Positions 10,485-55,063 of a DNA stretch of 64,000 nucleotides are shown one piece after another (the first letter of the stretch is position 1; the number at the start of each line of letters is the position of its first letter). The DNA is from Anadara kagoshimensis. Its lineage: Eukaryota; Mollusca; Bivalvia; Arcoida; Arcidae. Under the pieces are notes generated by a model. It worked only from the letters and a program-made list of their open reading frames with translations. It made no database searches and was not told where the DNA came from. The translations under genes were made by a program, and so were the position numbers. Location: assembly GCA_021292105.1 (NCBI GenBank), contig CM037869.1:35591835-35655834 (forward strand), given 5' to 3'.

Positions 10485-11705
10485 ACAGTCGTCAAATATT
10501 GTCTTCAGTCTTATTCAGAAAAAGTATATTCTACATCTGGAATCAACCAAATGTGGATTCTAAAAAATTCTAAAGAATTACTTGAACATCTTGCTTCTAA
10601 TACTTTTCTCATGTAAAAAGTATAAAAACATTTGATTTTCCTACACTATACACCACTATCCCTCATTCTAAATTGAAAGAACGTCTAAAAGAAATTATAC
10701 ACTTGTCATTCTTTTACAAAAACGGTAAGCCAAGATACAAATATCTGGTGCTAAAAAGGGATTCTGACTATTTTGTCAAGCATCATACGGATTCCAAACA
10801 AAAAATACTGAAGATACCATCAACAAAATGTTGGAGATTTTGATAGATAACATATTTGTTGTGTTCGGTAATATAGTTTGTCAACAAACAATCGGTATAC
10901 CAATGGGTACAAACTGTGCATCATTGCTTGCTGATTTGTTTCTTTATTCATATGAAGCAGAATTTATGCACAACCTTGTTAAATCTGGAGAGAAGATTGT
11001 CGCCAAATCATTCAACTCAGCATACAGACATATAGATGACGTCCTGTCACTTAACAATCGAAAATTTGGAGACTATGTGAATGTCATCTATCATAGTGAG
11101 TTTGAAATAAAAGACACGACTAATTCCTCAAGTTCTGCTTCATATTTAGACTTATACCTGAATTATGACGCACACAAAAGGCTACATTTGAAACTTTATG
11201 AGTCATCACGAATTTAATTTTACTATTGTCAACTTTCCTTTTCTATGCAGCAATATACCTACTGCTCCTGCTTATGGTGTATTTGTTTCCCAATTAATAC
11301 GCTATGGAAGAGCATGTTTCCACTACAGGGACTTTGTACAACAAAGTAGTCTGCTTGCAAAAGAATCGTCGACTCAGAGATTTTGCGAGCCTAGGCTTAT
11401 CAAGGCCCTCAAAAAGTTTTATGGCCATCATCACAGTATTGTTGATAAGTTTGACGTCACTGTGTCCAGGATTGCCCTGGATATATTTGACGTCCCATAG
11501 TTCCATGTTCCTTTTACACAATTTTGATTACACACATGGCGTGTGTAGCTAGCTAAACAGGAAGTACTTACCCTTCCGGAACACCTGGCCTCACGTCCCT
11601 GTTGGAAGTTCATGTTTCTAACCTAACACGTCAGTTCCAAAGTGTTTACTTTGCTTCTGGATTGTAATTCCGACATGGATTAGTATGTCTTTGATTATAT
11701 ACTTC
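10485..11705 (+). mobile_element. Penelope-like element, reverse-transcriptase fragment and 3' tail
   Basis: Protein homology starts at the SYSEKVYSTSGINQMW-like stretch (about 10,500), runs through FDF.TLYT, KPRYKYLVLK, IGIPMGTNC (near 10,891) and a degenerate YRHIDD (the Y of the YxDD box is H), and ends at LDIFDVP before a stop at 11,498-11,500. Several frameshifts break the frame (before 10,828 and at about 11,200). A non-coding 3' tail of about 200 bp follows, with TAGCTAGCTAAACAGGA and CCGGAACACC; the same tail recurs many times in the window. The copy is dead. PLE assignment rests on the RT motif series; no GIY-YIG endonuclease is present. Confidence 0.85.
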
Positions 11706-12815: not shown

Positions 12816-13525
12816 TTTTTTATTTCTTTTATTGTTTTCATTTCCATTCTTTGATTAAATAGTCATGGATTATTTTTGAGAGTACTGGTTTAATAATGTT
12901 CCGATAACATTATGTAGATTTGATTCAACAGCACCCGTTCAAGTAATGTTGAGTCAAGGTCAACGCAATAGATTAGTTGATGCCATTTATGTCTTTTTTT
13001 CTTATTTTAAAAGATGTGGCCACATAATTACCAATGTATGATAAATGGTATGTCAGTGGCCGGGTCACTGCATCAGAGCCACTGTTGTGTGACTACGATG
13101 GTAAAAATGTCCATTAAGTGAGACATCTAAAAGTTGGTCAACAAACAAATACTGAATACACGCATTTGTAAGTAGAAATCATTGTCTGAAAATGGTCTCA
13201 GGATGTTCCATTTTCAGGTAATTGTTGTTAATTATCAGAGAGCAAGCTCTTTGCCCCCTAGCAGGCGAAGTGGTTTTGGTCTGATCCGTATGGCTTTAAA
13301 GATATAGCTACGGTAATGCTCGTATGGACCTATGATGAGATCTGAAACAAGAGGCCTTATGGGCCTTATAACCGGGATAACTTTTGGATGAGCGGCCCAA
13401 CGGAGACATTAGGATCCTGTTAAACAGAGAGGTCCCAAAAAACACAGGAGTAAACTATATAAGTTTCACGTATCATTTTTTCAGACGGCACAGAAATAAT
13501 GGCAATAATTACATAGTATACCAGG
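12816..13525. other. Unassigned sequence
   Basis: No gene or known repeat recognised, apart from the start of the retrozyme flank at about 13,510. Confidence 0.35.
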
Positions 13526-13774
13526 TACCAGTTTCACAATCATTCCTTAGCTAAGATTTTCCTTAACTTAAATTTAGCAAATTTTGGTTATCTATTTTTG
13601 GAAATGCTGATTTTTTCAAAACTAAATGAAAGTGTTTTTAATCTAGAAGTGATCTTAAAAATGACATCTTAAATTCCTCAATATCTTGAAAATTAACAAA
13701 ACTATAAAGATTTAAAATTTTACCAGATTTAAGTTAAGGAAAATCTTAGCTAAGGAATGATTGTGAAACCGGGG
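13526..13774. mobile_element. Palindromic MITE (CC(A/G)GTTTCAC ends)
   Basis: The left end and the inverse of the right end agree over roughly 45 bp: GTTTCACAATCATTCCTTAG followed by CTAAGATTTTCCTTAACTTAAAT. The whole is about 248 bp and inserted between ATACCAGGT and TTTAATTTTACAG of a ribozyme repeat; the uninterrupted junction is seen at 14,940. Related pieces are at 14,400-14,600 and 49,815-49,975. Confidence 0.75.
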
Positions 13775-13791
13775 AAAGTTTTAATTTTACA

Positions 13792-13836
13792 GCACTAGAC
13801 GGCCGTTTCGGAACACAATTCCTCATCAGTAGTGTC
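13792..13836 (-). ncRNA. Type I hammerhead ribozyme, intact core
   Basis: Read on the minus strand: stem I 5' side CACTA, core CTGATGA, stem II GGAAT-TGT-GTTCC (five pairs with one G-U, three-nt loop), core GAAAC, a minimal stem III (AC/GT around a GGCC loop), cleavage triplet GTC, then stem I 3' side TAGTG. All conserved hammerhead nucleotides are present, and both ends lie in stem I, so the type is I. Very short stem III is known for animal and PLE-linked hammerheads. Predicted cleavage is after the C complementary to 13,798. Activity is inferred, not shown. Confidence 0.85.
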
Positions 13837-14958
13837 TGAACCAAAACTATGAAATGAAAATTGTTCTAAAGATGTTGAAGAGACTTCCAAAGGGCCTAAA
13901 AATATTTACCAAATTTATCTAAGGAATACACCTTAGTTGTTGAGGAATTTCACATTTTACCTTGCAGCAAATTTAGACAATAGTATATTTCTGACAATAC
14001 TACACAATAATTGTCTAATTAATTATAAAATCAAAAGCAAATACATCATCAATAATTACAATTCAAATTTAAATATAAATATCTATCGATTGGTTTCAAT
14101 AAATAAAAATTATTTACCCAAAAATATCCGTATTTTATCTTATGTTTAGACAACTAACAGTAAAAAAGTAGCTACACGGGATATACATGACATGTTCTTC
14201 TTTTATAAGAGGGATTCACAACAACAGTCTGATAACGGTCCAACATTTGGTATTTTGATATGGTGAAAGATATATGTAATGTTGGAAATATGACATCAAA
14301 AAAAAAAAATGGAAACAATGGGCTTCGGTACTGAGAACATTGAAGATCATACCTTAACCTTTTTAAGGTTTAATAAACCTGACTCCAGGTTAACAATACA
14401 TGTAATTTTTTAACTAAGATGTTCCTTAACTAAAATCTGGAAAATTTGATACGTTAATTGTTTCATATCCTGAAAATCAATGTCTTATTTTGAAGATTAT
14501 ATTAAACGTTTTGTCAAAAATGCTTATTCTAAGTTCCAAAGATTACAAAAATTCGCTAAATTAAGGAAAATCTACAGGGGCGTGGTAAACTGAAAACTGA
14601 AGCTTTATTTCAATTCTCAAATGTTTTTGTTTTTGTTTTTTTTTTTAATTTTGAAATTCCGATAAGATTTTTAAAAAAATCGAACATGCTTATTGTTGGA
14701 ATAATAATAATAATAAATTATAAAGGGATAAAATCAAAAATAATTTTAATTTAGCATAAAAATCCAAAATATACCCCATTTCAAAACAAAAAAGTTCCAA
14801 TCGGAAAAATATGCGAAGCATAACAAATAGAAAAAGAGGATTTTCACTAACTAGATAAAATTGCATGAAGTTATATACAAATGTAAGTCACATTATTTTC
14901 AGGAAAATCATAAACTAGATTTCTACTAGTTACATATTATACCAGGTTTAATTTTACA

Positions 14959-15003
14959 GCACTAGACGGCCGTTTCGAAATGCAATTCCTAATCAAGAGT
15001 GCT
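14959..15003 (-). ncRNA. Hammerhead ribozyme relic (core mutated)
   Basis: Same layout as the 13.8-kb copy: GAAAC, GGCC loop, GTC and TAGTGC stem are intact, but the CTGATGA box reads TTGATTA, which changes C3 and the catalytic G8. Predicted inactive. Confidence 0.7.
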
Positions 15004-15789
15004 TGGGCTAAAATATAAAACCAAAACTTTTTTCTAAGATGCTGAAAAGAAACGCAAAAGGACAAAAATCACCTAAGGAAATACTTTACATGAGGGAATT
15101 TACCTTATATTTTAGGAATTTCAAATTTTAACTAACAGCAAATTTATACAATAGTATATTTCTGACAATAAAACACATTTATTACCTAAAAAATTTCAAA
15201 CTTTACTAACTGATCATATGACATTATTGGCCTTTTTACTGACATTTTTAAAAATCTCAAATTTTTATAACATTTTTTTAAATAATTGTATTGCTATATG
15301 TATCAAATTCAAGTAAACTTATCTCAATGTTTTAAGTAATAATCTTTTATTAGCTACTCAAATAATACAGCCCCAATAATCAGTTATGTGCTTTTCTAAA
15401 ATATCTAGATTAATCCTTAGAATGTAGATTAAATATTTAACAATGGTATATATATATATATATATATTGCACTTTTGTTACCCGGCAAGTGATCCCAGTG
15501 GTCCCAACAACGACACCTGACCATCCTCTTTTTAGAGCCTGGGCCAATAAAAACACAAATTACAAAACAATTCTAAACTTCAAGTTTGTTTTACAAAAAT
15601 AAAAAAAAGAATTAACAGACTCACATAATAATAAGATTTAAAAAAAAGTTAACAGACTTGCAAAATGCAAACTTAAAATTTCTTTACAAGATTTTTAAAA
15701 AAGTTAACAGACTTGTTAAATCCAAACTTCAAATTTCTTTACAAAATTAAAAAATAATCAACAGACATAAGATACCTTAATAATTGTCT

Positions 15790-15826
15790 TACCTGAAATA
15801 CAATTCTTCATCAATAGCGTTTGGAA
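15790..15826 (-). ncRNA. Partial hammerhead relic
   Basis: Keeps a (C)TATTGATGA-like box and stem II (AGAAT/ATTTC) but is cut off before the GAAAC, stem III and cleavage triplet. Confidence 0.45.
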
Positions 15827-15840
15827 TAAAATTATGAAAC

Positions 15841-16345
15841 CAAAACGTTTTACCCTAGATGTTATAGAGGGTTCGAAGGCCTATAAAATTCTTTTATACA
15901 CCTTGTCAGCTAGAGCCTCTTCTAAGGTTAGTAAAATACTTGGAATTGAAGTTGTCTCAATCCTTATTACCTTAGGGTAGTAATAAAAGAATCCTCGTAT
16001 GCTTGAGGCTAACCATTTGCTTAGAAATCTTTATAAATTATTCAACTTTACTGTACTAAACGTGACGTCCACTCCTTGACACAAAATTAATAAGGTAAAA
16101 CAAGACTTAGGGGTAAAAAAAATCTATTTTTGGATAAATATGTAATTTTAATTTCCGTTAATTATAGTTTCCAATATACTCACTTTTTGGAAATATTTCA
16201 CTTACAAATTACTTTTTAATTTAAATTTCCGCGCTAAGTACAGCAAATAATAAACGACGCACGCATAATTTTATATCTGTTAACGGCACTATAATTATAG
16301 GAAAATAACATTGACCTATCTGCTTAACCTTTAATTAGGAATATC
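15841..16345. other. Unassigned sequence
   Basis: AT-rich; no gene or repeat recognised before the SINE. Confidence 0.35.
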
Positions 16346-16362: not shown

Positions 16363-16708
16363 GTTGAGTTGAGTAACGGTGATAAACGTCCCAATCAAGA
16401 TTATTTTACTTATATCGAGACGTCGTCCGCCAGCTATAGGTGAAGGTGCAGAAATTTTGCCTGTGCGTTGCGCTGATGGCATTATACAGCAGGGTTTTTT
16501 ATTGTGCCAAACCCACCGTGACACGGGACCTCGTTTATTTTAAGTTCCCATCCGAAAGAACCGTGGTTTTCATTTCGTAATACTGAGTGCTTTGCGAAAG
16601 AACAGTCACTACCCACTGTCAAGTCTTGGGTCAGACCCGGTTGGGGATCGAACCCACGGCCTCCCACTTACGGAGCGAGTACTCTGCCAAATGAGCTACC
16701 GTGGTGGA
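16363..16708 (-). mobile_element. tRNA-derived SINE, V-domain type, 17-bp TSD
   Basis: Full-length minus-strand copy. Flanks CATATGGTGTGGGAGGA (16,346-16,362) and CATATGGTATGGGAGGA (16,709-16,725) are a 17-bp target-site duplication with one mismatch. The tail is made of GAGTT repeats on the plus strand. Confidence 0.93.
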
Positions 16709-20135: not shown

Positions 20136-20356
20136 GGGAGGCACAGGTTCAAATTCCCCGTACTAGCGTACACTTAGTACTTGATATCAGACAGATCATA
20201 ATCACGCGACAAAACTTTAGGGTTCAGAAAAAATGTTGATACCAACAAATCAACTATATTTGTATTGTTTAAAGACAGTGTTTAAAAGTTAATAACAATC
20301 CATCGCTTATATATCAACATCTTGATAACGATTTTGGTTTTATAATTTTGATTCAA

Positions 20357-20403
20357 GCAGTACTGATAAGGAATTATATTTCGAAACGACTGTCTAGTGT
20401 TGT
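20357..20403 (+). ncRNA. Hammerhead ribozyme, left copy, G8 mutated
   Basis: AGTA stem, core CTGATAA (the catalytic G8 is A), stem II GGAAT/ATTTC, GAAAC, GTC, TAGTG. All other core positions are kept. Predicted inactive. Confidence 0.7.
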
Positions 20404-20691
20404 TAAATTAAAACTTATATAATATTTTATTTAAACCCCTGAGCTGGTATCACTGCTAGTGGCTGGTGCCCCGAGGATATCACAAAACTCAGTAGAAAAT
20501 AATTGTATATGATTGTCAGAAATATGCTATTGTCTAATTTTGCTGCTAGTTAAAATTTGAAATTGCTCAAAAACTAAGGTATACTCTCCTCATGCAAAGT
20601 ATTTCCTTGGCTAAATTTGGAAATATGTATTTTGGTCCTGTAGGTATATTTTCAACAATTCATAACAATTTTTATTTTATATTTTTGGTCC

Positions 20692-20736
20692 AAGCACTAC
20701 TGATACGAATTGTATTCCGAAACGGCCGTCTAGTAT
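20692..20736 (+). ncRNA. Hammerhead ribozyme, right copy, damaged core
   Basis: AGCACTA stem I, CTGATAC in place of CTGATGA with one base lost, stem II GAAT-TGT-ATTC, GAAAC, GGCC loop, GTC, TAGT. Recognisable but predicted inactive. Confidence 0.7.
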
Positions 20737-20775
20737 TGTTAAATTAAAGCTGGTATAATATGTAATTATATCGAT

Positions 20776-21730: not shown

Positions 21731-22149
21731 TAAGATGTTGAAATGAGAAAAATGGTGTGACTAAAATTTATTTTACTAATTGCCTTTATTTTACACATTT
21801 TATTTATTTTTAAGACGTTAAAATGATGTGACCAAATTCATTCTACTAAATCCACCAAAGCCAATACTTTGAACCATTAAGTGTAGCTTAATTTTTTAGG
21901 AATTATAAATTTAAGTAGAAAAAAACATGCTTACTGATATCACTGTTTCCAAAACTTAATAAAGCTACTAAAGTTTTTTGGTCATTTTATTTTAATTGAA
22001 TCCATAAAATACTTAACTCTATGTATTTCTACTTAAATGCTTATTTAAAACAAATTTCAAAATTACTTAAAATTAGAGTTCACCTTTTTCTGTGCAACCA
22101 GAGTGTAAAATACGTTTTTACTACAAACTATGGTTACAAATAAATTTTT

Positions 22150-22405: not shown

Positions 22406-23289
22406 TTGTTTGTACTCAATTAACTTTTTGTAAGGTAAGAAGAAACGTTCTAATTAACTGATGATGAACACAAAACATCCCCTAGAAAGGTTGCTTGGCA
22501 TCCTTCAAGGCAGAAATCTATTGATAGCATGGTCATGATGGCGGCTAACGTAACACGTCCGTTAAGCTACTAACGATGACAGTGTAATAATGTTTTAGCA
22601 GTATTCTGGCTTCTATTACAACTTTTATGTAGCAACTAAATAGCTTAAACTTTCAAATTTAACTAACTTAATATAAGGGGTCTTAACAGCTTTTAATAAA
22701 AGAACTGTTCGCTATCTTTGATTTACCCTTTCTACCAGAAACTTAGTTTTTAACATCAAGAGAATGTATATATTTTCCAATGAAATGGAAAATACTGTTC
22801 TTTTCAGATTCAGTACGTAGCAGAGGCTTATCAATTTTAAGGATCATGAAGTTACTTTTTTTTTGGTATTTATAAAAGACAATATAATTTTAAACAAGTG
22901 AAAGTGTGACATGCAATAAAACGGCAAATCTTAACACATCTGTGGTCCATATTAGAATTAGAATGAACAGAAAAAAATATGTCATATCCTAATGTATATT
23001 GGTTTTGAATCGAATCTACTTCTGTAAGATAAAGTAACATGCAAAAAAAAATAACTCCTCATTTCAACATCTTTTTCAATATTTTATTTCCAGTTTATCC
23101 CAAAATTTTATCCAAAAGTTAAAGAGAAAATTATATAAAATATGATAACATCTTTGTCATATCCTAATATAAATTTAGATACTTAGTTTTGAATCGAATT
23201 TACTTACGTAAAATGCAAAAATAACATAAAAATTATGATAAAATAAATTCATAATTTAGTCTTCTTCAAAATATTTAGGTTTCTTATTT
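22406..23289. repeat. Unassigned, with direct repeats of a CATATCCTAATGTAAAT block
   Basis: A block CATATCCTAATGTA..., TTTTGAATCGAATCTACTT, CGTAAAAT, ACATGCAAAA occurs at about 22,980, 23,155, 23,790 and 27,668. It behaves as an internal part of the retrozyme-like repeats. Confidence 0.4.
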
Positions 23290-24009
23290 TTTCCTAGGAC
23301 TTCTAATGATTTTATTTCAAAAGGTCGTCTAGTGCTGCAAAATTAAAACAGAATTAGTGATAGTTAGCTCAGAATATTTGTATTATTACATGCATATATG
23401 AGTTAGATTTGCGTGTTTTATAAATACTCTCAGTTTGCCGTCAGACAATCACATTTTACTTTGCAAATACAACTACAATGCAGACGTTTCATGTCCAATT
23501 TGACAATCAACATTTTGGAATTCAATATTATTCATTTTATTTATTATTTATCACAGTGAAGATGTCTAGTAAATCATCATTTTATCTGACCTTATTAACA
23601 GACGGGTTAAAAATCAACTCTTACCTATATATGTGAAGGAGGTCATTTATATTTTCGGTATTTATAAAAGACAACATAATTTGAAAGCAAGTGAAAGTGC
23701 GACATAAAATAAAACATCAAATCTTAACACATCCGTGGTCCATAATAACATAAAGTAAAACAGAAACTCGTCTAAAATATAATTTTTTGTCGTATCCTAA
23801 TGTAAATTAGTTTTGAATCGAATCTACTTTCGTAAAATTAATTGACATGCAAAAAAATTAAATTTCTCATTTCGACATCATAATAATATTTATATTTCCG
23901 TTTTTGTTTCGAGGACTATTGATGAGGAATTTAATTCCGAGGTTAAAAAGAAAACTATCTAAAATTTTATAATTTAATTTAAATACTATCCAGTGTTGTA
24001 AATTTTTTA
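23290..24009 (+). mobile_element. Retrozyme-like relic with two degenerate hammerheads
   Basis: The left motif at 23,297-23,338 keeps only GTC-TAGTGCTG and traces of the core. The right motif from 23,919 keeps TTGATGAGGAATTTAATTCC but its GAAAC-to-GTC part is interrupted by about 45 bp before CCAGTGTTGTAAA. The spacing is about 660 nt. It ends directly at the palindromic site at 24,010. Confidence 0.5.
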
Positions 24010-25944: not shown

Positions 25945-26031
25945 TTAATGTTTCTCAAGGTAAGAAAATCAAAACATATTATCATGAATTTACAAAGTTG
26001 TTAAAGTAAATAACATTTTAACACCTGCTTT

Positions 26032-26096
26032 CCAGATCAGGAATCGAACCCGAATCTCTCATTGCTGGGCGCTCTACATTAAGCTACCTGGAAATG
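26032..26096 (-). repeat. tRNA-like SINE-head relic
   Basis: On the minus strand TCCAGGT and ATCTGGA can form a 7-bp acceptor stem, and the B box GGTTCGATTCC sits in a good T arm, but the anticodon arm does not pair. It lies in the intron of the recombinase relic. A functional tRNA is unlikely. Confidence 0.5.
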
Positions 26097-29654: not shown

Positions 29655-30470
29655 CGAACACACGCCCATACTTTAATTAATCAAGTCGAAGTGTTTGGAC
29701 CAAAATTATGAATCAAAAATTGTTTTCAAGATGTTGAAAATATACCTAAAGGACGAAAATATATGTTAACAAGTTTAGCTATGGAAATACCTTTGTATTC
29801 ATTAATTTTATTTTTTATCAAAGACGGGTTATTAGAATCATATCTTAACATATATTTTATCGGCTATATATAAATATTATTTTTTCATGTTCTTTTAAAT
29901 ACAATCTTGTTTTAAACTAGGGTAATAGTTCTTTTCAGATTGACGTTTCTGTTTTAATCGATTATCAATGTATGAATTATCAAAGACGGCTTATTAGAAG
30001 CATGTAAATTATTTTATCGGCTATTTGTTAAGATTTGTTTTGCCTTTTTTTAAATACAACATTGTTTAAGCTAAGATAACGTTTTTTAGTATTGACGTTT
30101 CTGTTTTAATCGATCATCAATTTATGAACTGTTAAAGCAGGCTCGGAGAAATTTTAAAAATAGCAAAGCGGTTAATGGTGAATTTGCACCAGAATGTTAG
30201 AAAAAGCAGTTATATTTTTCTTCTCAGTATTTTATATAATATTCTGTTCGGTTGTATTCCGTGTATATAGCGCACAATTGTTAACTTCAACCTCCGTAAC
30301 GCTTAACTTCAGTAAAATGGGTCAAGTTCCACAATTTGAGACTGTTATAACATTTTCCCCGATACGTAATCACTCGATTCGAAAAGTTCTATAGAAATGA
30401 ATATAATTCAATTTATATTTAAATTAAAAAAAAAAACAGCAAATAAGTGTATGTGATACTTTAACAACTT
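29655..30470. repeat. Retrozyme-related segment, empty-site paralogue of the LINE locus
   Basis: Holds a degraded ribozyme end (about 29,670-29,700, minus strand) and the ATGTTGAAAATATACC block. Two direct units of about 162 bp start with ATCAAAGACGG (29,818 and 29,980). Then comes a unique-looking part from 30,128 that is repeated at 32,750-32,840 plus 35,071-35,450, where it is split by the LINE. Confidence 0.6.
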
Positions 30471-30527
30471 CATTTGGGTTTCTTTTCAACATCTTCGTAA
30501 AACTTTGGGTTTCATAATTTAAGTCTA

Positions 30528-30573
30528 AGCACTACTAACGAGGGGTTGTATTCCGACACAAGTGTCTAGCGTT
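30528..30573 (+). ncRNA. Hammerhead relic (left)
   Basis: AGCACTA stem I, CTAACGA for CTGATGA, GACAC for GAAAC, GTC and TAGCG. Several core bases are changed; predicted inactive. Confidence 0.55.
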
Positions 30574-31035
30574 TTAAAATTAAAACTGGTATAATCAGTT
30601 ATGTCTCCAAAAACATTATGTGGATGAAATTATGAACTTTATATCTAATCTCGAAACATGTCCGATACCAAATACAGTGACATAACTGATAGGTAGATGC
30701 ACTGTAAATCTGGAAATCAATTTTAAAAGAATTTAAGTTAAACATACAACACTGACAAATCTGCTATATTTTTACGTTGACATACCTGATATCGGCCATC
30801 AAAAAACCACCTTAAAATCTAAACTAGCAGACTTTATATAGTGACAATACCGCTACTCCAGGAAGCAATACATAGTTGTTAGATAAACATTTATAAATCA
30901 TTTTAAATTCTTCAAAAAGACTAAGATATGCTTTATCGTTTAAAGTTTTGCCTCGGGTGGATTTGGTAAAATATTTTCTTTATTTGTTTTTCTCATTTCT
31001 ACATCTTAAGATATTTAGATTTCCAATATTTTTAT

Positions 31036-31083
31036 CCGAGTGTTAATGATGAAGAATCTTATTCCGAAAAGGCAGTCTAGTGC
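31036..31083 (+). ncRNA. Hammerhead relic (right)
   Basis: Core ATGATGA (C3 changed to A), stem II AGAAT-CTT-ATTCC, GAAAA, GTC, TAGTGC. Close to intact but C3 is lost. Confidence 0.6.
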
Positions 31084-31110
31084 GGCAACAGTAACGATTT
31101 AGTTTGTCTT

Positions 31111-32419: not shown

Positions 32420-32840
32420 ATTACATATTATACAAGGTTTAATTTTCCGCACTTGACAATTCTTTATTAGTAGTGTTTGGACCTAAATTATGAAAGCAAA
32501 ATTCTTTTCAAGATCTTGAAAATATACTTAAAGGACGAAAATATATGTTAACAAATTTAGCTAAGGAAATACCTTTTTATTCATTTATGTTTTTTTTTAT
32601 TATCAAAGGCGGCTTATTACAAGCATGTAAATTATCATATATTTTATCGGCCATATGTCAATATTTGTTTTGCCTTTTTTAAATACAACATTGTTTAAAC
32701 TAAGGTAATGTTTTTTTGGATTGTCATTTCTGTTTTATCAATGTATGAGCTGTTAAAGCAGACTTGGATAAATTACAAAACTAGCGAAGCGGTTTATAAT
32801 GAACTTGCCCCAGAATGTTAGAAAAGCAGTAATATATTAA
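32420..32840 (-). repeat. Retrozyme relic, left half of the LINE target locus
   Basis: The ribozyme (about 32,451-32,482, minus strand) has lost GAAAC and stem III by an internal deletion. The rest parallels 29,690-30,210 but has one, not two, of the 162-bp units. It is interrupted by the LINE at about 32,841. Confidence 0.55.
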
Positions 32841-35070
32841 AGTCTGTCTCAGGTGGCCAGGTTGCGCGAACAAACCCAATTGATATAAATGATTGGGTTT
32901 CTTATTTTAGTGACGTCTTAAATAGACCGACTACCGATGCTACTTCTCAGTGTCCTAGTGACACTTGTAACGATATACCATCAGAGCCTCTATCAGATGT
33001 AGAAGCAGGTATTTTTAATAGTGAAATAACAGCACAGGAAGTGATAGAGGTCGTAAATACTCTCAAACGTGGTAAATCGGCAGGTCCAGATAAAATTATT
33101 CCCGAATTGTTCATATACGGTTTAGATTCGTTTTTAAGTATTATGGTCAAATTGTTTAATAATATTTTTAGCAGTGGCATGTTTCCAGATTGCTGGACTA
33201 AAGCAATAATTATACCTTTACACAAAAAAGGATCCCTGTCTGACCCTCAAAATTATAGAGGGATATCCCTAAATAATATTTTTTGTAAAATTTTTACAAC
33301 AATTGTACATAGAAGATGAGTTTTTGGGTTGACATTTACAATAAAATAACTGAAAGCCAAGCTGGTTTTAGGCATGGTTATTCTACCCTAGATAACATTT
33401 TTATTTTACAAGCTGTTACACAAAAATATTTATGTAAGAAAAAGGGTAAATTATATGCTGTTTTTGTAGACTTTAAGCGGGCGTTTGATACTGTTGATAG
33501 GAACAATATGTTTCAAGTATTAAGGCATAGAGGTGTAGGGGGTAACCTATACAGGGTAATTCAAAATATGTATAAAAATGTTAGTTGTTGTATTAGAAGC
33601 GGGTCTTTGTATTCAGAATATTTCAATGTATCTCTAGGTTTGAAACAAGGTTGTGTTTTAAGTCCAATTTTATTTTCGATGTATATAAATGAGTTATATG
33701 AAATGATGGCAAAAGATGGAAATAGGGGTATACAGATGATTCCTGATTTAACAGAAATATTTATGTTGCTGTTTGCAGATGATATCGTAATGTTTTCAGA
33801 AACTGTTAGTGGTTTACAGAATCAATTAGATACTCTTAAAATTTATTGTAATGAGTATAAGTTAGATGTTAATCTCCAGAAAACGAAAATTGTTGTTTTT
33901 AAAAAGGGTGGAAAATTGTCTAAACATGAGAACTGGTATTATAATGGAATGATGTTAAACAGAGTGAATTGTTACACTTATTTGGGTATAAATTTTTCAA
34001 GGCAGTTATCATCATATGAAATGGTTGCACCATTAGCTAAAAAGGGTAAAAAAGCTGTATCTATTTTATTAAGGTCACTATATAAATTAGGGAATCTGCC
34101 TTCAAATGTATTTTTTAGAATTTTTGACACAAAGATATATCCAATATTAATGTATGGGTCAGAGATATGGGGTTTTCAAAAATAAGATGTGCTAGAACAT
34201 ATACAGTATTATACATGTAAACGGTTTTTAACAGTTAATTTAAATGTTAGTAGTATTGCTGTTCTCTCTGAATGTGGGAGATTACCTTTATATATATTTA
34301 CTGCCAAACGTGTACTTACTTTTTGGTTTAAAATTTTAAGTTTAAGTAATGAGAGGTATGTTAAGAAAGCTTATAACATGTTATACTTTTTAGATAGTAA
34401 TGGAAGAGAAAATTGGGTTACAAAAATTAGAATTTTGTTGTGTACCACTGGTTTTGGGGAGGTTTGGATGTATCAGGGGGTTAATAACATAAATTTATTT
34501 TTAACAGTATTTGTGGAAAGAATGAAAGATATATATCTACAACAATGGTACAGCGATATAAGTAGTAAACCAAAGTTAAGAACATACAAGGATTTTAAAA
34601 CTATTTTAGAACTAGAAGTTTATGTTGATGCAATTCAAATAAGTAAATTTAGACACGCACTAGCACTTTTTAGGGTAGGTTCTTCTAATTTGGCAATTGA
34701 AAAGGGTAGGCATATGGGTATAAAAAGGGAGGATAGATTATGCAGATTTTGTAATTTAAAATGTATAGAAGACGAGTACCATTTTGTACTTATTTGCAAT
34801 GCCTACAATAATATACGACATAAATACATTTCTTTAAAATATTTTAAAAACCCTACATATCAAAAATTTATTATTCTTATGTTACTGTTGTAAGAAATTT
34901 AACTATGTATAATATTATGCATTAAGAAAAAAGTCTATGTAAAATATATTTAGTTAGTTTGAAATTATTACGTATTATTCACATTTTGTCATTTATATAC
35001 CGCCATTGATTGTAACTTATTGTGATATGGGCCTGAGGCCTTTAGTCAATAAACATATATATATATATAT
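32841..35070 (+). mobile_element. 5'-truncated non-LTR retrotransposon (LINE)
   Basis: Boundaries come from comparison with the empty paralogous site at 30,210-30,220: the left flank ends at AAAAGCAGTAATATATTA, the element starts around AAGTCTGTCTCAGG and ends with AATAAA (35,048-35,053) and an (AT)n tail before TCTTCTCAGTATTTTATG. About 2.2 kb, lacking the endonuclease and most N-terminal coding sequence. The AT-rich junctions hide the exact target duplication. Confidence 0.85.
32850..34893 (+). pseudogene. LINE reverse transcriptase with C-terminal Cys/His motif
   Basis: The frame is open from the truncation point (VARTNPIDINDWVSYFSDV) into the RT: KRGKSAGPDKI near 33,071, PLHKKG.SDPQNYRGISL, AGFR.GYST, VFVDFKRAFDTVDR, LKQGCVLSPILFSMYIN and the catalytic LLFADDIV near 33,770. 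After the thumb comes a C-terminal region with C-x2-C...H-x4-C (CRFCNLKC..EYHFVLIC near 34,742). Only two lesions are seen: a one-base loss near 33,316 that shifts the frame after TIVHRR, and an in-frame TAA at 34,183-34,185. The clade is not resolved (RT only). The few lesions suggest a fairly recent insertion. Confidence 0.88.
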
Positions 35071-40619: not shown

Positions 40620-41056
40620 TCACAAAATCCAACATTTTTTTGATTTGATAGTATTTTCAGTATATTTCTGTTTGTATCCTGTATGATGCTTTACAAAATA
40701 ACCAGATTCCTTGTGAAGCTCTAGATATTTATATCTTGGCTTACCGCTTTTGTAAAAGGATAACAAGTGAATGAATTGTTTAAGACGTTCTGGATATTTT
40801 GTCAAGCATCATACGGATTTCAAACAAATATATACTGAAGATACAATCAATAAAACGCTGGCGTTTTTGATAGATAACATATTTGTTGTGTTTGATAAAT
40901 AATTTACCAGCAAACAATCGGTATATCAATGTGTACAAACTGTGCACCATTGCTTGCCGATTTTTGTTTTTATTCTTATACAGAACCTTGTTAAATCTGG
41001 AGAGAAGACTGTCACCAAATCATTCAACTCCACATAGAGATATATAGATGAAGTTC
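40620..41056. mobile_element. Penelope-like RT fragments in inverted arrangement
   Basis: 40,620-40,790 read on the minus strand gives KSGKPRYKYLELHKESGYF and VKHH; 40,795-41,056 read on the plus strand gives the overlapping segment (YFVKHHTDFKQIYTED) and continues through a damaged IPMG box to a mutated RYIDE. The two meet near 40,790 head to head. Confidence 0.75.
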
Positions 41057-41563
41057 TGTCGCTTAACATACATAACAGACATACACAACAAATATGTTGT
41101 TGTCCCAGCTGATAAGGCTTCCAACAACATTATTCTCGTTTGTAAGAGATTCTACCTTGAATGTCTTATTAAGGAGCTCGGTTTAGATAGTATATCAAAT
41201 AACCCTGCATATACTAGAACTAATTTTACCAAAGATGAAGTTCTTTCCAACCATAGGGGAGTTCTCGAATCTTTTCGGTGTCAAACTTAAAGAGGAAGAT
41301 CTTGATCTTCCTTACTTGTATTGGATTCCTAAACTCCATAAAAATCCATACAAGGAAAGATATATAGCAGGCTCATCTAAATGTACTACTAAATCATTAT
41401 CGGTAACTCTAACACAAATTTTCACAATCGTCAAAGATGGTCTTCAGTCTTATTCAGAAAAAGTATATTCTACATCTGGAATCAACTAAATGTGGATTCT
41501 CAAAAATACTGAAGAATTACTTGGACATCTTGCTTCTAATACCATCCACATGCAAAAAGGGCC
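41057..41563 (+). mobile_element. Penelope-like RT, N-terminal part
   Basis: Encodes NKYVVVPADKASNNIILVCK, then after a one-base shift near 41,250 LDLPYLYWIPKLHKNPY, SSKCTTKSLSVTLTQIF and YSTSGIN, followed by a stop. This is the only place with the region upstream of the other fragments. It directly follows the C-terminal half of another fragment, so order is permuted as in a tandem junction. Confidence 0.8.
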
Positions 41564-42567: not shown

Positions 42568-45500
42568 TCATTCCTCAACTAATACACTCGTTTCTGGTAC
42601 AGATGGCAAAGGAGCAGTGATATCCTGCAAGCTAGGGGGTATAAACTTTCTAACATTACGATACAAGTACCACTGTCTAGTGGCTGACAGACCAGCAGAC
42701 TCAACTCTACTAGGAACATCTCTGGTAACTGACTTCCCATGCTTAAGTATACAAATTCGTTTTTCTTGGGAATCTACAGACTCTTTTACAACAACATACC
42801 CAGGATCCGAGGCTAAAAATTTAAAATGAAAATACTTTCTTACATTAGGAATGGGCTTGAAATAAGACCCAAGAAAGTGTTTCCAATCTCTCCAAACCCA
42901 ACTATTGCCAGACTCTGTGTATACCTTAGTACTGCAGTATTTGCAAGACCTTAAAATAACATCTGCTACCTGCATTACAGAATCAACATCATTTTTCCTA
43001 AGTTTCTGGCGACCAATTCCAAACATTCCATCTATCTGGCACCTAGCATGATAAGGCTGTAAAAAATGCAAATTTATTTCTTTATGATAGCCAAGAATTG
43101 TTCTCCAAGAAAAGTAACCAATTACAGTCTGATTTTTATTCTGACCACCACAATTGTCACAATTTATGAAACATTTCTGTTCACCTTCACTATGATGTAA
43201 AAAAAAGTCATCAATCATAGACACGACTGCACTTGATGAATGGCTGTTAGCATTGTCCAAGCCCATTGAGTCACCTTCTGAGAATATATAGTTATACATA
43301 TGTGGCTTCCCATCATTTAAGATACCAAACCAATTCACTTTTAAAGGTGTCTTGTAATACAGTGCCCCCTCCTGTCTGACATGTCCTGGAACAAGTACAG
43401 GCTGAGCAAAGTCAAATGTGTAGTGTATGCACTTCATATCTTCTCTATTAATACCACTTTTGTATTCAGCTTCCGCATCTTTGCATCTGAAAAAGAATTG
43501 CAATTTTTCATTTCACTTATTATTTTGAAATCTGGACAATGTTTACAAAATTTCATTACAAAAATAAAATAACATGTATTTTTAACTCAATTTTAATGAA
43601 TATCGGTTGTCATTAACTGTCCATAAAAGTTTAATTTGAAAATGAAGTACCATAATCATAGTGTAGTCATATATATTGCTATAACTACATAATTTCCACT
43701 CTAATCTGTTAAAATGCCTTATTAATTCAGAATTGAATCACTACCAAGAGGAATACAAGTCAACTCGTCCCAATTTCAACTTGTCCCAACTCATTTTACC
43801 AACTCGTCCCAGAATTCGTTACCAACTCGTCCCACATTTTATACCAACTAGTCCTAATTTTTTGAACATGTTATTGTTTATATTAAATCAACTCAAACAA
43901 GCAGTCGTAATAAAAGATGTTTGGATATTCATAATACAACTGTTTGAATAGTGATTTCAAACGGCAACGGACGCAAGCAGTCGGCAAAGTCATCTTGCAT
44001 GTTTATATTCATAACACGGTTAAAAAAAATGGTTTCTTTTTAAAAACATTTAGGCCATATAGTTATAAGTAATTATTATTTAAATATATTGTCACTTAAA
44101 CGAAAATTGACACAAGCCGACGGTACGTATAGTCAGATTAATCGGGAAATTCCTCCAAGAAGGTGTTTATTAAATCAACACAATGTTATGTTTAAAGATG
44201 GTCCAAAAAGAACATCAAACTTAAAACTATAAAGTGGGACGAGTTGGTTTTTTATGTGGGACGAGTTGGTAGTCAAAATCTAGGTAAATAAAATACGGCC
44301 AAAAAATGTGGGACGAGTTGGTAAAAAATGTGGGACGAGTTGGTGAAAATAAGTTGGGACGAGTTGGAATTGGGATGAGTTGACTATACACCACCAAGAG
44401 ATTTCACTTGTACATTTTTACCTGTAATCTTATGTCTGTTTTGTTTGTCATTACCTCCCCCCTTAATGCCACACATTATGACATATCATAAATCCATGAA
44501 GATGACAAAAGCAAGTAGTAAACAAAATTTAGCACGTAAAACAAAAATCTTGTTTATCACCTCTGTGACAACAATATACTACTGGTATATAGCTTACCTT
44601 TGCTTATAGTAATCTCTTTCTGTCTGAGCTCTCTGTATATGTTCTGCAAAACTTTGAGCTAGACTCAACTTTTCATCTTCTGTATTAGCCTTCAAATATA
44701 AAAATAATTGTTTTGTAAATTCTTATCTAATAATAACATGCTGTATGGAACAACTATTATGTGTATATAATGTTTTTATAGTGGATGTTACACAAATGTG
44801 TGGAGCCCTCAGTGGTCAAGTGAACCAAAGCATTTGTTTATGATCATAGACCCTCTCACTGCCTAAGTTAAAACCCCATTTAAGACAGGTCCTTGGGCTA
44901 GTGTGAGAATGTTTGTTGGTTTGTTTGCCAAAGGTAAGTAGTTTTCTCTGGGCACTCAGGTTTCCTACACCATTCCCCAACCTGACCGCCTCATTGCAAA
45001 TGAGACTTTTTGACTGGGGCTTAAAACACCATTTCTAAAAAAAAGATGCATATACTATAAGTTCAAGAGAACTTCAAATATACAGCATATGTTATATTTA
45101 TCTGGTATTTATATATATCAAGAAATGTTATATACAAAAAAAATGTTTTAACAAAAGATATTTAGTAAATTTAAATTCACCTCCAGTAACTCCTTCCTGT
45201 ACTTTTCACATATGTGGCATACATCAGATCTTGTCCTCATAAACTGAATGTGGGGCACACACTGCTTCCATAAGCTGCGAAAGGTGGTCTCGCCTACACT
45301 TCGAAAATCCATTTCCTCTGCTATATTCAAATATTTCTTATGTACCGAGTCATATGTTTCCTGTGCGGGCAGGTAAATTGGAGGGATAATGTCAGTGACT
45401 CCTCTAGAATATGGTTGGGGCATCCCATATCTGTCTGCATATCTATAAATACAGAATAAAAACATTTTTATTTCAGCTTTACAGTATGCAAATTGGTAAC

Positions 45501-46956: not shown

Positions 46957-47030
46957 CATAAACAGAAAGTCAAGAAACCAGAGTGGGCATATTTGTCAGA
47001 AATCGTTAGTTTTCTGCTGTTTAATAGAGC

Positions 47031-48122
47031 TTGAAACTTTTGAGGCGTAGAAAACCGGAACATAAAATTTGGCGCACTTTTGTAGTGCAAATTGTAATGC
47101 TGTTTTCTGCATTTCAATTGGATTTCTCTAAGGGCCCTTTTCGCTTGCGGAACGTCGTATATTCTACACCTGGAATCAACCAAATGTGGGTTCTCAAAAA
47201 TTCTAAAGAATTACTTGGACATCTTGCTTCTAATAATTTATCTCATGTAAAAAGTATAAAAACATTTGATTTTTCTACACTATACACCACAAGCCCTCAT
47301 TCTAAATTGAAAGAAGGTTTTAAAGAAATTATTCATTTGTCTTTCTTCTACAAAAACGGTAAGCCAAGATACAAATATCTGGTGCTGAACAGGGATTCTG
47401 GTTATTTTGTCAAGCACCATACGGATTCCAAACAAAAATATACTGAAGATACCATCAACAAAATGTTGGAGTTTTTGATAGATAACATATTTATAGTTTT
47501 TCAGCAAACAATCGGTATACCAATGGGTACAAACTGTGCACCATTGCTTGCTGATTTTTTTCGTTATTCTTACGCAGCAGAATTTATGCAGAACCTTGTT
47601 AAATCTGGAGAGAAAACTGTCGCCAAATCATTCAACTCAACATACAGATATATAGATGACGTTCTGTCTCTTAACAATCCTAAATTTGGAGACTATGTAA
47701 ATGTTATCTATCCTAGTGAGCTTGAAATAAAAGACACGACTGATTCCTCAAGTTCTGCTTCATATTTAGACTTATACCTGAATCATGACGCACAGGAATG
47801 GCTACATTTGAAACTTTATGACAAACGTGATGACTTCAATTTTTCTATTGTCAACTTTCCTTTTTTATGCTGCAATATACCTGCTTCTCCTGCTTATGGT
47901 GTATTTGTTTCTCAATTAACACGCTATGGTAGAGCTTGTTCCCACTACGGGGACTTTGTACAACGAAGTAGGCTGCTTGCAAATAAACTGTTGACTCAGG
48001 GATATTGCAAGCCTAGGCTTATCAAGGCCCTCAAAAAGTTTTATAGCCGTCATCACAGTATTGTTGATAAGTTTGATGTCTCTGTGTCCAGGATTGCCTT
48101 GGATATATTTGACGTCTCATAG
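47031..48122 (+). CDS. Penelope-like reverse transcriptase, longest ORF in the window
   Basis: Uninterrupted frame of 363 aa. Residues 1-42 are unrelated flanking sequence; homology begins at YSTPGINQMW (about residue 44). Visible RT motifs: FDFSTLYT at about 79-86, KPRYKYLVLNRDSGYF, IGIPMGTNCAP at 161-171, and the catalytic YIDD at 207-210; then SYLDLYL, KRDDFNFSIVNFPF and the C-terminal KKFYSRHHSIVDKFDVSVS, ending LDIFDVS. Compared with the copy at 10.8 kb, five codons before QQTIGIP are missing. The N-terminal part of the RT and any GIY-YIG endonuclease are absent, so the copy is 5'-truncated and not autonomous, although its catalytic box is intact. Confidence 0.8.
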   Translation: MKLLRRRKPEHKIWRTFVVQIVMLFSAFQLDFSKGPFRLRNVVYSTPGINQMWVLKNSKELLGHLASNNLSHVKSIKTFDFSTLYTTSPHSKLKEGFKEIIHLSFFYKNGKPRYKYLVLNRDSGYFVKHHTDSKQKYTEDTINKMLEFLIDNIFIVFQQTIGIPMGTNCAPLLADFFRYSYAAEFMQNLVKSGEKTVAKSFNSTYRYIDDVLSLNNPKFGDYVNVIYPSELEIKDTTDSSSSASYLDLYLNHDAQEWLHLKLYDKRDDFNFSIVNFPFLCCNIPASPAYGVFVSQLTRYGRACSHYGDFVQRSRLLANKLLTQGYCKPRLIKALKKFYSRHHSIVDKFDVSVSRIALDIFDVS

Positions 48123-49150: not shown

Positions 49151-49814
49151 GATTAATACTGAATACTCGTCTATGACATAAAAACATACTTATTGCCTGG
49201 AGACCTGAGTAAATGTAATGATGTTTTGCAATGATGACTCCCATTTTTGCCAAGTAATGTAAATTATTAAAATACATTTTTACTCATATTACAATGTTTT
49301 TTTATATTTTTATTATTTGTAATGACACATAACATGCTATACAACAAAAAGAGCATAGTACACAAATATTAACAGAAAGACAAATAAAGACATTTCTTTA
49401 CACAGTTACATGTTTTATATATAAAGGGGAATAATTCACATATTTTGGGTGTTTATCAGGTTATATTAATTAATTCCACATATGTATATGGTAGAAATAA
49501 TGCCTTCAACATTTCTAATGGTAGTCTGAAATATTTATTATGTAAAAATTAAAATTGGATACACAAATGGTTAATTGCTTATTTCCTTTTAAGGAAATCC
49601 TAAAGAATTTTAAAGGTCATTTGGGGAGGGAGGAGAACAGTTACATCTTAAAACAAATTCATCCAGTGCTTCTAATATTTTTCGTATTCTTGCCATTTAC
49701 AGTTCTTAAACATAATATATTTTTCAATGAAAAAATATTCTTGCAGGTAGTTTTGTAAACTAAGTATGTGAACCCCTGATTTTTTCAATTTCATTTTAAA
49801 AATATATAATATTT
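49151..49814. other. Unassigned sequence
   Basis: No gene or repeat recognised. Confidence 0.35.
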
Positions 49815-49975
49815 TTGTCAAAACTAAATGCAAATGTTTTAACTTAGAAGTGATCTTAAGAATTACGCCTAAAATTTCTGAATATGTTGAAAATTAACAA
49901 AATTATAAAGATTTTAAATTTTGCCAGATTTAAGTTAAGGAAAATCTTAGCTAAGGAATGATTGTGAAACCGGGC
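49815..49975. mobile_element. Half copy of the palindromic MITE
   Basis: Matches the right two-thirds of 13,526-13,774, ending TTAGCTAAGGAATGATTGTG and AAACCGGG. The left inverted end is missing. A further TGAGGATTGATTGTGAAAAT fragment follows near 50,060. Confidence 0.65.
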
Positions 49976-53964: not shown

Positions 53965-55063
53965 TTACAAGGTTATCAGACTTCCACTGAAATAACTGTA
54001 GTTATAATATTTATAATGACCAGCTCCTTTCACCCAGATCTTGTCACCAAACTTCAGAGGTATCGCCACTGTTAATGACACTGTCGGGTACGAATTACCC
54101 GGTATGTTGTCGTAAAGGAATGCCAGTTGTGCGCCATTTTTCATAAGATGTCCCTGTACATAAGAATATGAATAAGCCTGTAAAGTTACGCTGAACATAT
54201 ATATGCCATCATTTGGACAGTAAAAAATCCCATCGTTGCTGTGGTAACCACCGCCAATGTTGGATATAACCTTCTTGAACACCAAGGTCGCAGACGTTGT
54301 AACCTGTTGGTTTAACATTACAGTAAAAGCTACCTTTTTTATTCGAGTGTGATTGGCTGAAACATAAAGCACGTAAACAATAAAAACTTAGCTCAAATAC
54401 AATGAAAAAATATCAGGATCACATGATTGTTTTACTGGAAATAATGATGTCGCTGAATGTGTACTGCATACTATAAAATAAAAAAAAATAGTAATTAAAA
54501 CTGGCGTTAAGATAAAATAGCATTGTCATCCATATTTATTCATATGTAGTTATAAAATTTTGCATAAATCCGCGATTTTTTTCATTAGAGTTATGTTTTA
54601 CGCTCCAGTCAAAATGCAAGACGGTGAGCTATGAAATTGCAGAGAAAGCGTATTAATCGGAGAAATCCTTCGACAAGCGAACTACCGAACTTTTTCACTT
54701 TACGATCTTTCGGAGCGCGATTCGAATCTAGGCGGTTAGTTGAATCACCATATCCGTTTGGCCGTCCATCTTAATATCGTGTCGGCTCCATATATCCCCC
54801 ATGGCTATGGATGGTTTTTTTTGTCAAACTTGGCACACATGTTAACCATCAAAAATGAGACTTTGTCTGCACATTTACGCGCATAAGTCAAGGTTCAAGT
54901 TTAAGTCTTAGAAACAACAAATCGGCATTGTCGGGGCAGGAATATACATTGTATGTACATGTAGCTTAAAAGACGGTTTGTTAAATGTAGGAATTATCAT
55001 TGTTAGTCAACAACTGTCTCATCTTTGATTGAACTACCTGATATACAAAGATACATGAATGAA

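Follow-up and report, generated by a model that had tools for sequence, protein, structure and literature searches.

Does the short stretch of the minus strand at 13790-13838 encode a self-cleaving RNA and, if so, what kind of element carries it and how has that element spread? The window is the whole stretch of DNA that was analysed, 64 kb in length. A first-pass annotation had claimed for it a complete type I hammerhead ribozyme with all elements in order on the minus strand, and the sequence bears this out. Read from 13838 downwards, the motif runs CAG-A-CACTA (stem I), CTGATGA, stem II, GAA, stem III, C17 and TAGTG-CTG (stem I). Its parts are as follows.

13790..13838, minus strand: predicted type I hammerhead ribozyme with complete core (sequence; RF00163 at 22.9 bits; strict pattern)
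Inside 13790..13838, minus strand: predicted cut after the complement of 13798 (C17) (sequence)
13823..13829, minus strand: core CTGATGA (C3 to A9) (sequence)
13810..13822, minus strand: stem II, GGAAT-TGT-GTTCC (sequence and thermodynamic fold)
13799..13806, minus strand: stem III, AC-GGCC-GT, a palindrome of 8 nt with the potential to join two ribozymes by pairing (sequence and energies)

The hammerhead motif

Stem I consists of 5 bp followed by a bulged A and three further pairs, and stem II has a U-G closing pair. By the hammerhead core numbering and requirements that we take to apply, the core is intact. The conserved core in its order, stems I to III and an open stem I, by which a type I hammerhead is recognised, are all found at 13790-13838. 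The topology and the short stem III that had been proposed are thus supported, AC-GGCC-GT being read directly. The strict core pattern CTGATGAN{3,25}GAAACN{2,12}GTC matches once in the 64-kb window against 0.01 matches expected, and 1 of 100 shuffled sequences matched. Judged by its sequence the motif is a genuine type I hammerhead, with cleavage predicted.

A covariance model had been suggested as the check on this claim, with the lack of a significant score as its refutation, and here the outcome depends on the threshold. When a 221-base stretch was scanned with all 4,227 Rfam families, RF00163 (Hammerhead_1) gave 22.9 bits with an E-value of 0.0017, which speaks for the motif; it fails at the curated gathering score of 34, and for this reason a scan of the window at the gathering score reports no hammerhead. 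A hammerhead is likewise absent from the list obtained for the 64 kb at E<=10. The plain thermodynamic fold of the motif contains stems I and II and lacks stem III, and it is not better than the folds of shuffled sequences (z -0.61; 47 of 200 equally good).

A dispersed retrozyme family

The genome (G000; 1.115 Gb in 36 contigs, the window included) was searched with the core pattern CTGATGAN{9,14}CGAAACN{3,5}GTCTAGTG. It was found to contain 2,979 + 2,951 = 5,930 intact cores, against 0 + 0 for the reversed pattern used as control, and 341 + 243 = 584 tandem pairs of cores about 339 bp apart, where the control gave 0. Core matches can arise by chance: when relatives were sought with the core pattern, 2.9 million viral contigs yielded three matches, all GC-rich and without hammerhead stems by eye, and prokaryote contigs yielded 0. 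A chance resemblance at the present locus has nevertheless a vanishingly small probability, as the low expectation for the window already suggests, and the genome count against the reversed pattern rules it out.

The repeated unit, read from two loci (L027 and L012), is 339 bp long and non-coding with a GC content of 0.342, and its copies are dispersed over many contigs. Metazoan non-LTR retrozymes are characterised by a non-coding unit of 150-450 bp with a type I hammerhead, tandem arrangement, high copy number, dispersal, lack of LTRs and a GC content below 50%. Each of these was found here, the copies having one fixed tail and one scattered end. Animal non-LTR retrozymes have already been described (PMC7229834; PMC7761336). 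The window feature represents such an element in decayed form, and the family is a further member of the kind already known from mussels (PMC7229834). The annotation had spoken of an expanding and decaying family, and the 5,930 cores and 584 tandem pairs agree with a dispersed family that expanded and then decayed. It had also linked the motif to retrozymes and to Penelope elements; the tie to animal retrozymes stands, but the unit, a non-coding tandem repeat, is not itself a Penelope-like element, as 339 nt are too short for a reverse transcriptase (RT) and a GIY-YIG domain.

The retrozyme of Mytilus galloprovincialis also has a type I hammerhead, about 5,000 copies (the present genome has 5,930 intact cores), repeats measuring 350-390 bp (339 bp in the present family) and a low GC content (0.34 here), and its genome likewise holds Penelope-like elements (PMC7229834). 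The mussel ribozyme is described as being without most of the classical loop contacts, and the ribozyme here has a loop II of only 3 nt. Circles and cutting have been shown in the mussel, whereas the present family is known from DNA and is likened to it by its features. The retrozymes of newt and axolotl share a short stem III, a palindromic tetraloop (Amex1) and units of 330-350 bp; stem III of Amex1 has one pair and that of the present ribozyme has two. Plant LTR retrozymes are also non-autonomous and contain a hammerhead, and their circular RNA is known where ours is predicted, but they differ in having a type III ribozyme, LTRs and a length of 600-800 nt (PMC7229834).

With the flanks fixed and the core 7-mer left open, the pattern matched 5,325 places. 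CTGATGA stood in 78 of the 100 listed, a proportion that by itself is no test of selection. Among 82 motifs in the fetched retrozyme loci the commonest stem II was present in 60, and the stem variants look like decay. It should be noted here that an Rfam scan of seven retrozyme loci gave a sole match among those listed at E<=0.1, with 28.1 bits. The window and the seven loci all lie below the score of 34, so that the Rfam cut-off can conceal a family of this type.

Copies in the window

The unit is numbered from the first base past the ribozyme cut (position 1). With a young genomic unit as query 11 pieces were detected in the window, the focal copy and ten others.

13777..14017, minus strand: focal copy carrying the ribozyme, unit 98 to 339 and then 1 to 21, 79.5% identity to the young unit
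13528..13772, no strand assigned: MITE-like element with 58-bp inverted repeats, within the retrozyme tail (coordinates are the outer arm ends)
13506..13526, minus strand: remainder of the focal 3' tail (ACCTGGTATACTATGTAATTA) beyond the MITE, 90% identity to 14927-14947 over 21 nt
14930..15188, minus strand: second copy, unit 98 to 35, core mutated (TTGATTA)
15797..15845, minus strand: fragment, unit 277-325, partial ribozyme
20314..20767, plus strand: truncated tandem, unit 259 via one full turn to 37, two ribozymes with mutated cores
21830..21912, minus strand: fragment, unit 161-244, body only
23263..23349, plus strand: fragment, unit 265 to 20, ribozyme mutated
23870..23940, plus strand: fragment, unit 257-329, partial ribozyme
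29690..29798, minus strand: fragment, unit 199-306, ending inside stem I and adjoining a 152-bp tandem repeat
30470..30595, plus strand: fragment, unit 243 to 29, core mutated (CTAACGA)
30900..31094, plus strand: old copy, unit 163 to 17, 71% identity, core mutated (ATGATGA, GAAAA)
32420..32575, minus strand: fragment, unit 203 to 36, ribozyme with internal deletion

Eight of the ten other pieces bear all or part of the motif, the piece at 20314-20767 bearing two. None of the ten matches the strict core pattern, their cores being altered or lost. The earlier count of at least eight further copies with core mutations therefore holds, though some of the eight are fragments. The arms of the MITE-like element (13528-13585 and 13715-13772) are 58 nt long and 91% complementary, and further matches to it occur in the window at 49813-49974 and 49916-49973. 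The focal copy is an old, degraded relic interrupted by this element and is not a candidate for an active one; its ribozyme is a prediction from sequence.

The focal locus recurs on contig C13 between 34.7 and 36.0 Mb, where 8 of the 40 scored matches lie, itself included. The eight cover the whole query at 86-100% identity, and three of them (itself included) are identical. This stretch (L004-L011) seems to hold local duplications.

Two other assignments were tried and given up. A piece at 42811-42946 recruited by a profile lies inside a DUF7869 coding frame and has no match to the unit. A reading of the copies as MITE-like with weak terminal inverted repeats, based by eye on three copies in the window, fell because the 5' ends are scattered.

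The insertion footprint

A blastn search of loci L004-L081 gave 114 pieces, of which 85 distinct copies were left after removal of 9 cut by a locus edge and of those sharing a 25-nt 3' flank with another. The sample is non-random, since L004-L031 were chosen by similarity to the focal stretch; L032-L081, the source of 34 of the 54 copies with 88% identity or more, come from the first 6 Mb of contig C1 and were chosen only for an intact core there. The 3' ends fall at unit 34-42 downstream of the cut in 65 of all 85 copies, and in 50 of the 54 that reach 88% identity (from 47 loci). The modal 3' end is unit 37 (...CTGGTATAATATGTAATT) with 19 of the 54 copies, and the remaining four stop at 17, 19, 220 and 325. 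The 5' starts of the same 54 copies range from 28 to 329 with no favoured position; copies below about 55 nt go undetected, so that for single copies starts near the cut are invisible. More than one unit is covered by 16 of the 54 copies; 15 of these have their 3' end at 35-41 and one has it at 325, and no start among them lies close to position 1.

A copy with one end fixed and the other random is what characterises target-primed reverse transcription. The copies read back across the cut, which excludes a unit cut open by its ribozyme as the template, because from position 37 only 37 nt would be available. The template must therefore have been re-closed or never cut. The footprint agrees with reverse transcription that begins at one set place inside a closed circle or an uncut multimer, in the manner of Penelope-like enzymes. 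The literature searched, mainly the main texts of open-access papers, gives no fixed internal 3' end for retrozyme insertions, and the main text of PMC7229834 makes no mention of truncation or junction.

Target duplications, which in metazoan non-LTR retrozymes are longer than 4 bp when present, are rare. A single perfect case of 32 bp (L045) was seen in 70 copies, and 3 of the 70 score at least 8, the level reached by 1.0% of mismatched pairs. Sharing of at least 10 nt between the two flanks occurs in 6 of 46 copies against 1.2 expected, with both junctions involved in L045 only. Apart from this locus, target duplications are close to the mismatched-pair level. The insertion flanks of 47 copies are barely AT-richer than their surroundings (0.73-0.74 as compared to 0.68) and contain no clear site motif. 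Just past the 3' end neither an A-run nor a microsatellite is present in 53 of the 54 copies, the exception being the minus-strand copy of L021 (TA repeat). Two inverted pairs with both tails pointing outward were found, in L026 and L046.

Clonal arrays

Units belonging to one array are nearly identical. The divergence within arrays is 0.43% on average and at most 1.5% (28 pairs of complete units), as against a mean of 4.45% between arrays (323 pairs), and the nearest neighbour of a unit sits in its own array for 15 of 18 units; loci overlapping others were left out of this comparison. L015 and L016, which lie 7 kb apart, carry identical units, and with this pair removed the smallest difference between units from separate arrays is 2.1% (305 pairs). 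The clonal arrays agree with repeated turns round one circle; the uncut transcript of a clonal array would also account for them.

Penelope-like elements in the same genome

A search of the genome for the GIY-YIG domain (PF01541) listed 50 matches. Eight of the 11 fetched loci (L082-L092) show a hammerhead-like CTGANGA...GAAA motif by pattern and eye, and several of these motifs have a palindromic stem III (AGCGCT, AGTACT, ACATGT). The loci appear to be of two kinds with different minimal hammerhead-like motifs, L085, L086 and L092 on the one hand and L082, L083, L087, L089 and L090 on the other. L082 is a canonical Penelope-like element, with an open frame of 762 aa that has an RT and a C-terminal GIY-YIG domain, and forms an inverted pair with outward tails; it is the one of the 11 loci in which the RT was checked and confirmed. 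In L084 and L089 retrozyme copies lie downstream of GIY-YIG elements. Apart from the retrozymes lying in two of the loci, the retrozyme tail is not common to any of the 11.

RT fragments in the window on the plus strand (10768-11217, about 40800-41560 and 47028-48122) belong to another, very abundant family with 70,325 first-look candidates in the genome. Pfam reports no RT in the window piece of this family. A better copy (L093) has GIY-YIG at residues 119-208 (22.5 bits, cut-off 22.6) followed by RT at residues 730-833 (23.1 bits, cut-off 29.6). We take this order, with GIY-YIG N-terminal and RT C-terminal, to be that of the permuted Penelope-like elements called Naiad/Chlamys.

How the family may have spread

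We consider it probable that the family spreads as a retrozyme, in which a hammerhead unit forms a circle that is copied by a retroelement enzyme from about 37 nt past the cut. From the observed motif, unit, copy numbers, fixed 3' ends, scattered 5' ends and clonal arrays we infer the following cycle. The arrays would be transcribed, and each transcript would be divided into units by its adjacent hammerheads, which may act in pairs as double hammerheads given the palindromic stem III. Circularisation of the units could then fall to an RNA ligase of the host. Genomic DNA would be opened by the enzyme of a retroelement, with a Penelope-like one as the likeliest candidate, and reverse transcription would begin about 37 nt downstream of the sealed cut and run back through it. 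A halt at a random point would leave a truncated copy, and a halt after several turns a clonal array.

The choice of enzyme draws on the Penelope-like element PAc of Anolis, whose enzyme starts reverse transcription inside its RNA; this internal start explains the 30-40 bp tail of Penelope copies (PMC11167929). The enzyme prefers AT-rich DNA, and both strands are cut and extended. PAc is thus like the present family in its tail of tens of nucleotides left by an internal start, its tandem copies, its use of both DNA strands and a hammerhead near the tail; the difference is that Penelope-like elements encode RT and GIY-YIG and the unit here encodes nothing (PMC11167929). The outward inverted pairs of L026 and L046, the same layout in the Penelope-like L082 and the one perfect 32-bp target duplication of L045 count in favour of such a route. 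Against it count the mostly missing target duplications, the flanks that are only slightly AT-richer and show no clear motif, and the comparison of the unit with the 11 GIY-YIG loci, which gave no sequence similarity besides the two retrozymes within them. PMC7229834 leaves the mobilising enzyme open with Penelope-like elements as a strong candidate, and the start at +37 makes this directly testable.

A LINE-type enzyme could be mobilising the retrozyme in place of a Penelope-like one, since a fixed 3' end with random 5' truncation is a general mark of target-primed reverse transcription, and the window itself contains an RT frame read as LINE-like (33313-34185, RVT_1 4.9e-32). We regard this as improbable: past the retrozyme tail (GGTATAATATGTAATT) 53 of the 54 copies lack the A-run or microsatellite, target duplications are few and the inverted pairs point outward. 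It is also conceivable, though unlikely, that the template of the same retrozyme is an uncut linear multimeric transcript and that the ribozyme is not needed for insertion. Such a transcript likewise runs across the cut site and includes the +37 start, and the Anolis Penelope protein in vitro also inserts RNA with dead ribozymes (PMC11167929); on the other side, clonal arrays arise most simply from one circle copied repeatedly, with the reservation that a clonal source array would serve too. Amplification at the DNA level, as a satellite growing by unequal crossing-over or as a MITE or Helitron in which a hammerhead lies by accident, is disfavoured and very improbable. The tandem arrays and the C13 recurrences (8 of 40 scored matches, itself included, with 86-100% identity over the whole query) would suit it. 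However, the copies are dispersed over many contigs with one end fixed and the other random, and the arrays end where single copies do, 15 of the 16 longer-than-unit copies at 35-41.

Stem III and the state of the proposed circle

Two pairs close the GGCC loop of stem III, and ACGGCCGU is self-complementary. Its predicted energy is +2.4 kcal/mol as a hairpin and -14.1 kcal/mol as an intermolecular 8-bp duplex, and two ribozymes cofold as a double hammerhead at -36.7 kcal/mol as compared to -13.4 for one alone. In silico, therefore, the palindromic stem III favours a double hammerhead. The GGCC loop is present in 62 and the palindrome in 63 of the 82 motifs in fetched retrozyme loci, many of which were picked for intact cores. 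Axolotl and newt repeats are known to act as dimers, and to cut better as such, where the dimer form here is predicted (PMC7229834).

A point against the dimer idea is that a mussel repeat, when cloned, showed in vitro cleavage at a rate of about 0.1 per min (PMC7229834). In their Discussion the authors of that paper state that most metazoan circles, though not some of those from mussel, leave the ribozyme able to fold, and that something other than self-pairing must block it there. We propose that a ribozyme working only as a dimer would supply such a block. The reading in full is that in metazoan retrozymes Penelope-type target-primed reverse transcription rolls round the circle from about 37 nt past the ligated junction, and that the ribozyme is also a switch: on in multimers, where the palindrome joins two motifs into a double hammerhead, and off when single in a closed circle. 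This is put forward tentatively and falls somewhat short of an even chance. A switch of this kind would explain why the circles remain closed, and through the palindromic stem III the cause of the ribozyme's block in circles becomes open to experiment. In circular folds of seven units the ribozyme pairs elsewhere in four (L012, L014, L015 and L023), so that self-pairing could silence it and the dimer idea would not be needed. The predicted circle of one unit is not more stable than shuffled sequences (z -1.1; 15 of 100 as low).

Other features of the window

At 29690-30218 and 32456-32838 the 152-bp tandem repeat lies next to truncated retrozyme ends, and the two places are alike over several hundred bases; a composite repeat or a nested insertion is possible. 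tRNA-like sequences were seen at 1974-2037, 16634-16705 (minus strand) and 26029-26093 (minus strand); the two at 1974-2037 and 16634-16705 look alike and may be the heads of tRNA-derived SINEs. A frame with a C1q domain, which together with the retroelements suggests a bivalve mollusc, is located at 53965-54387 on the minus strand (E 2.1e-20).
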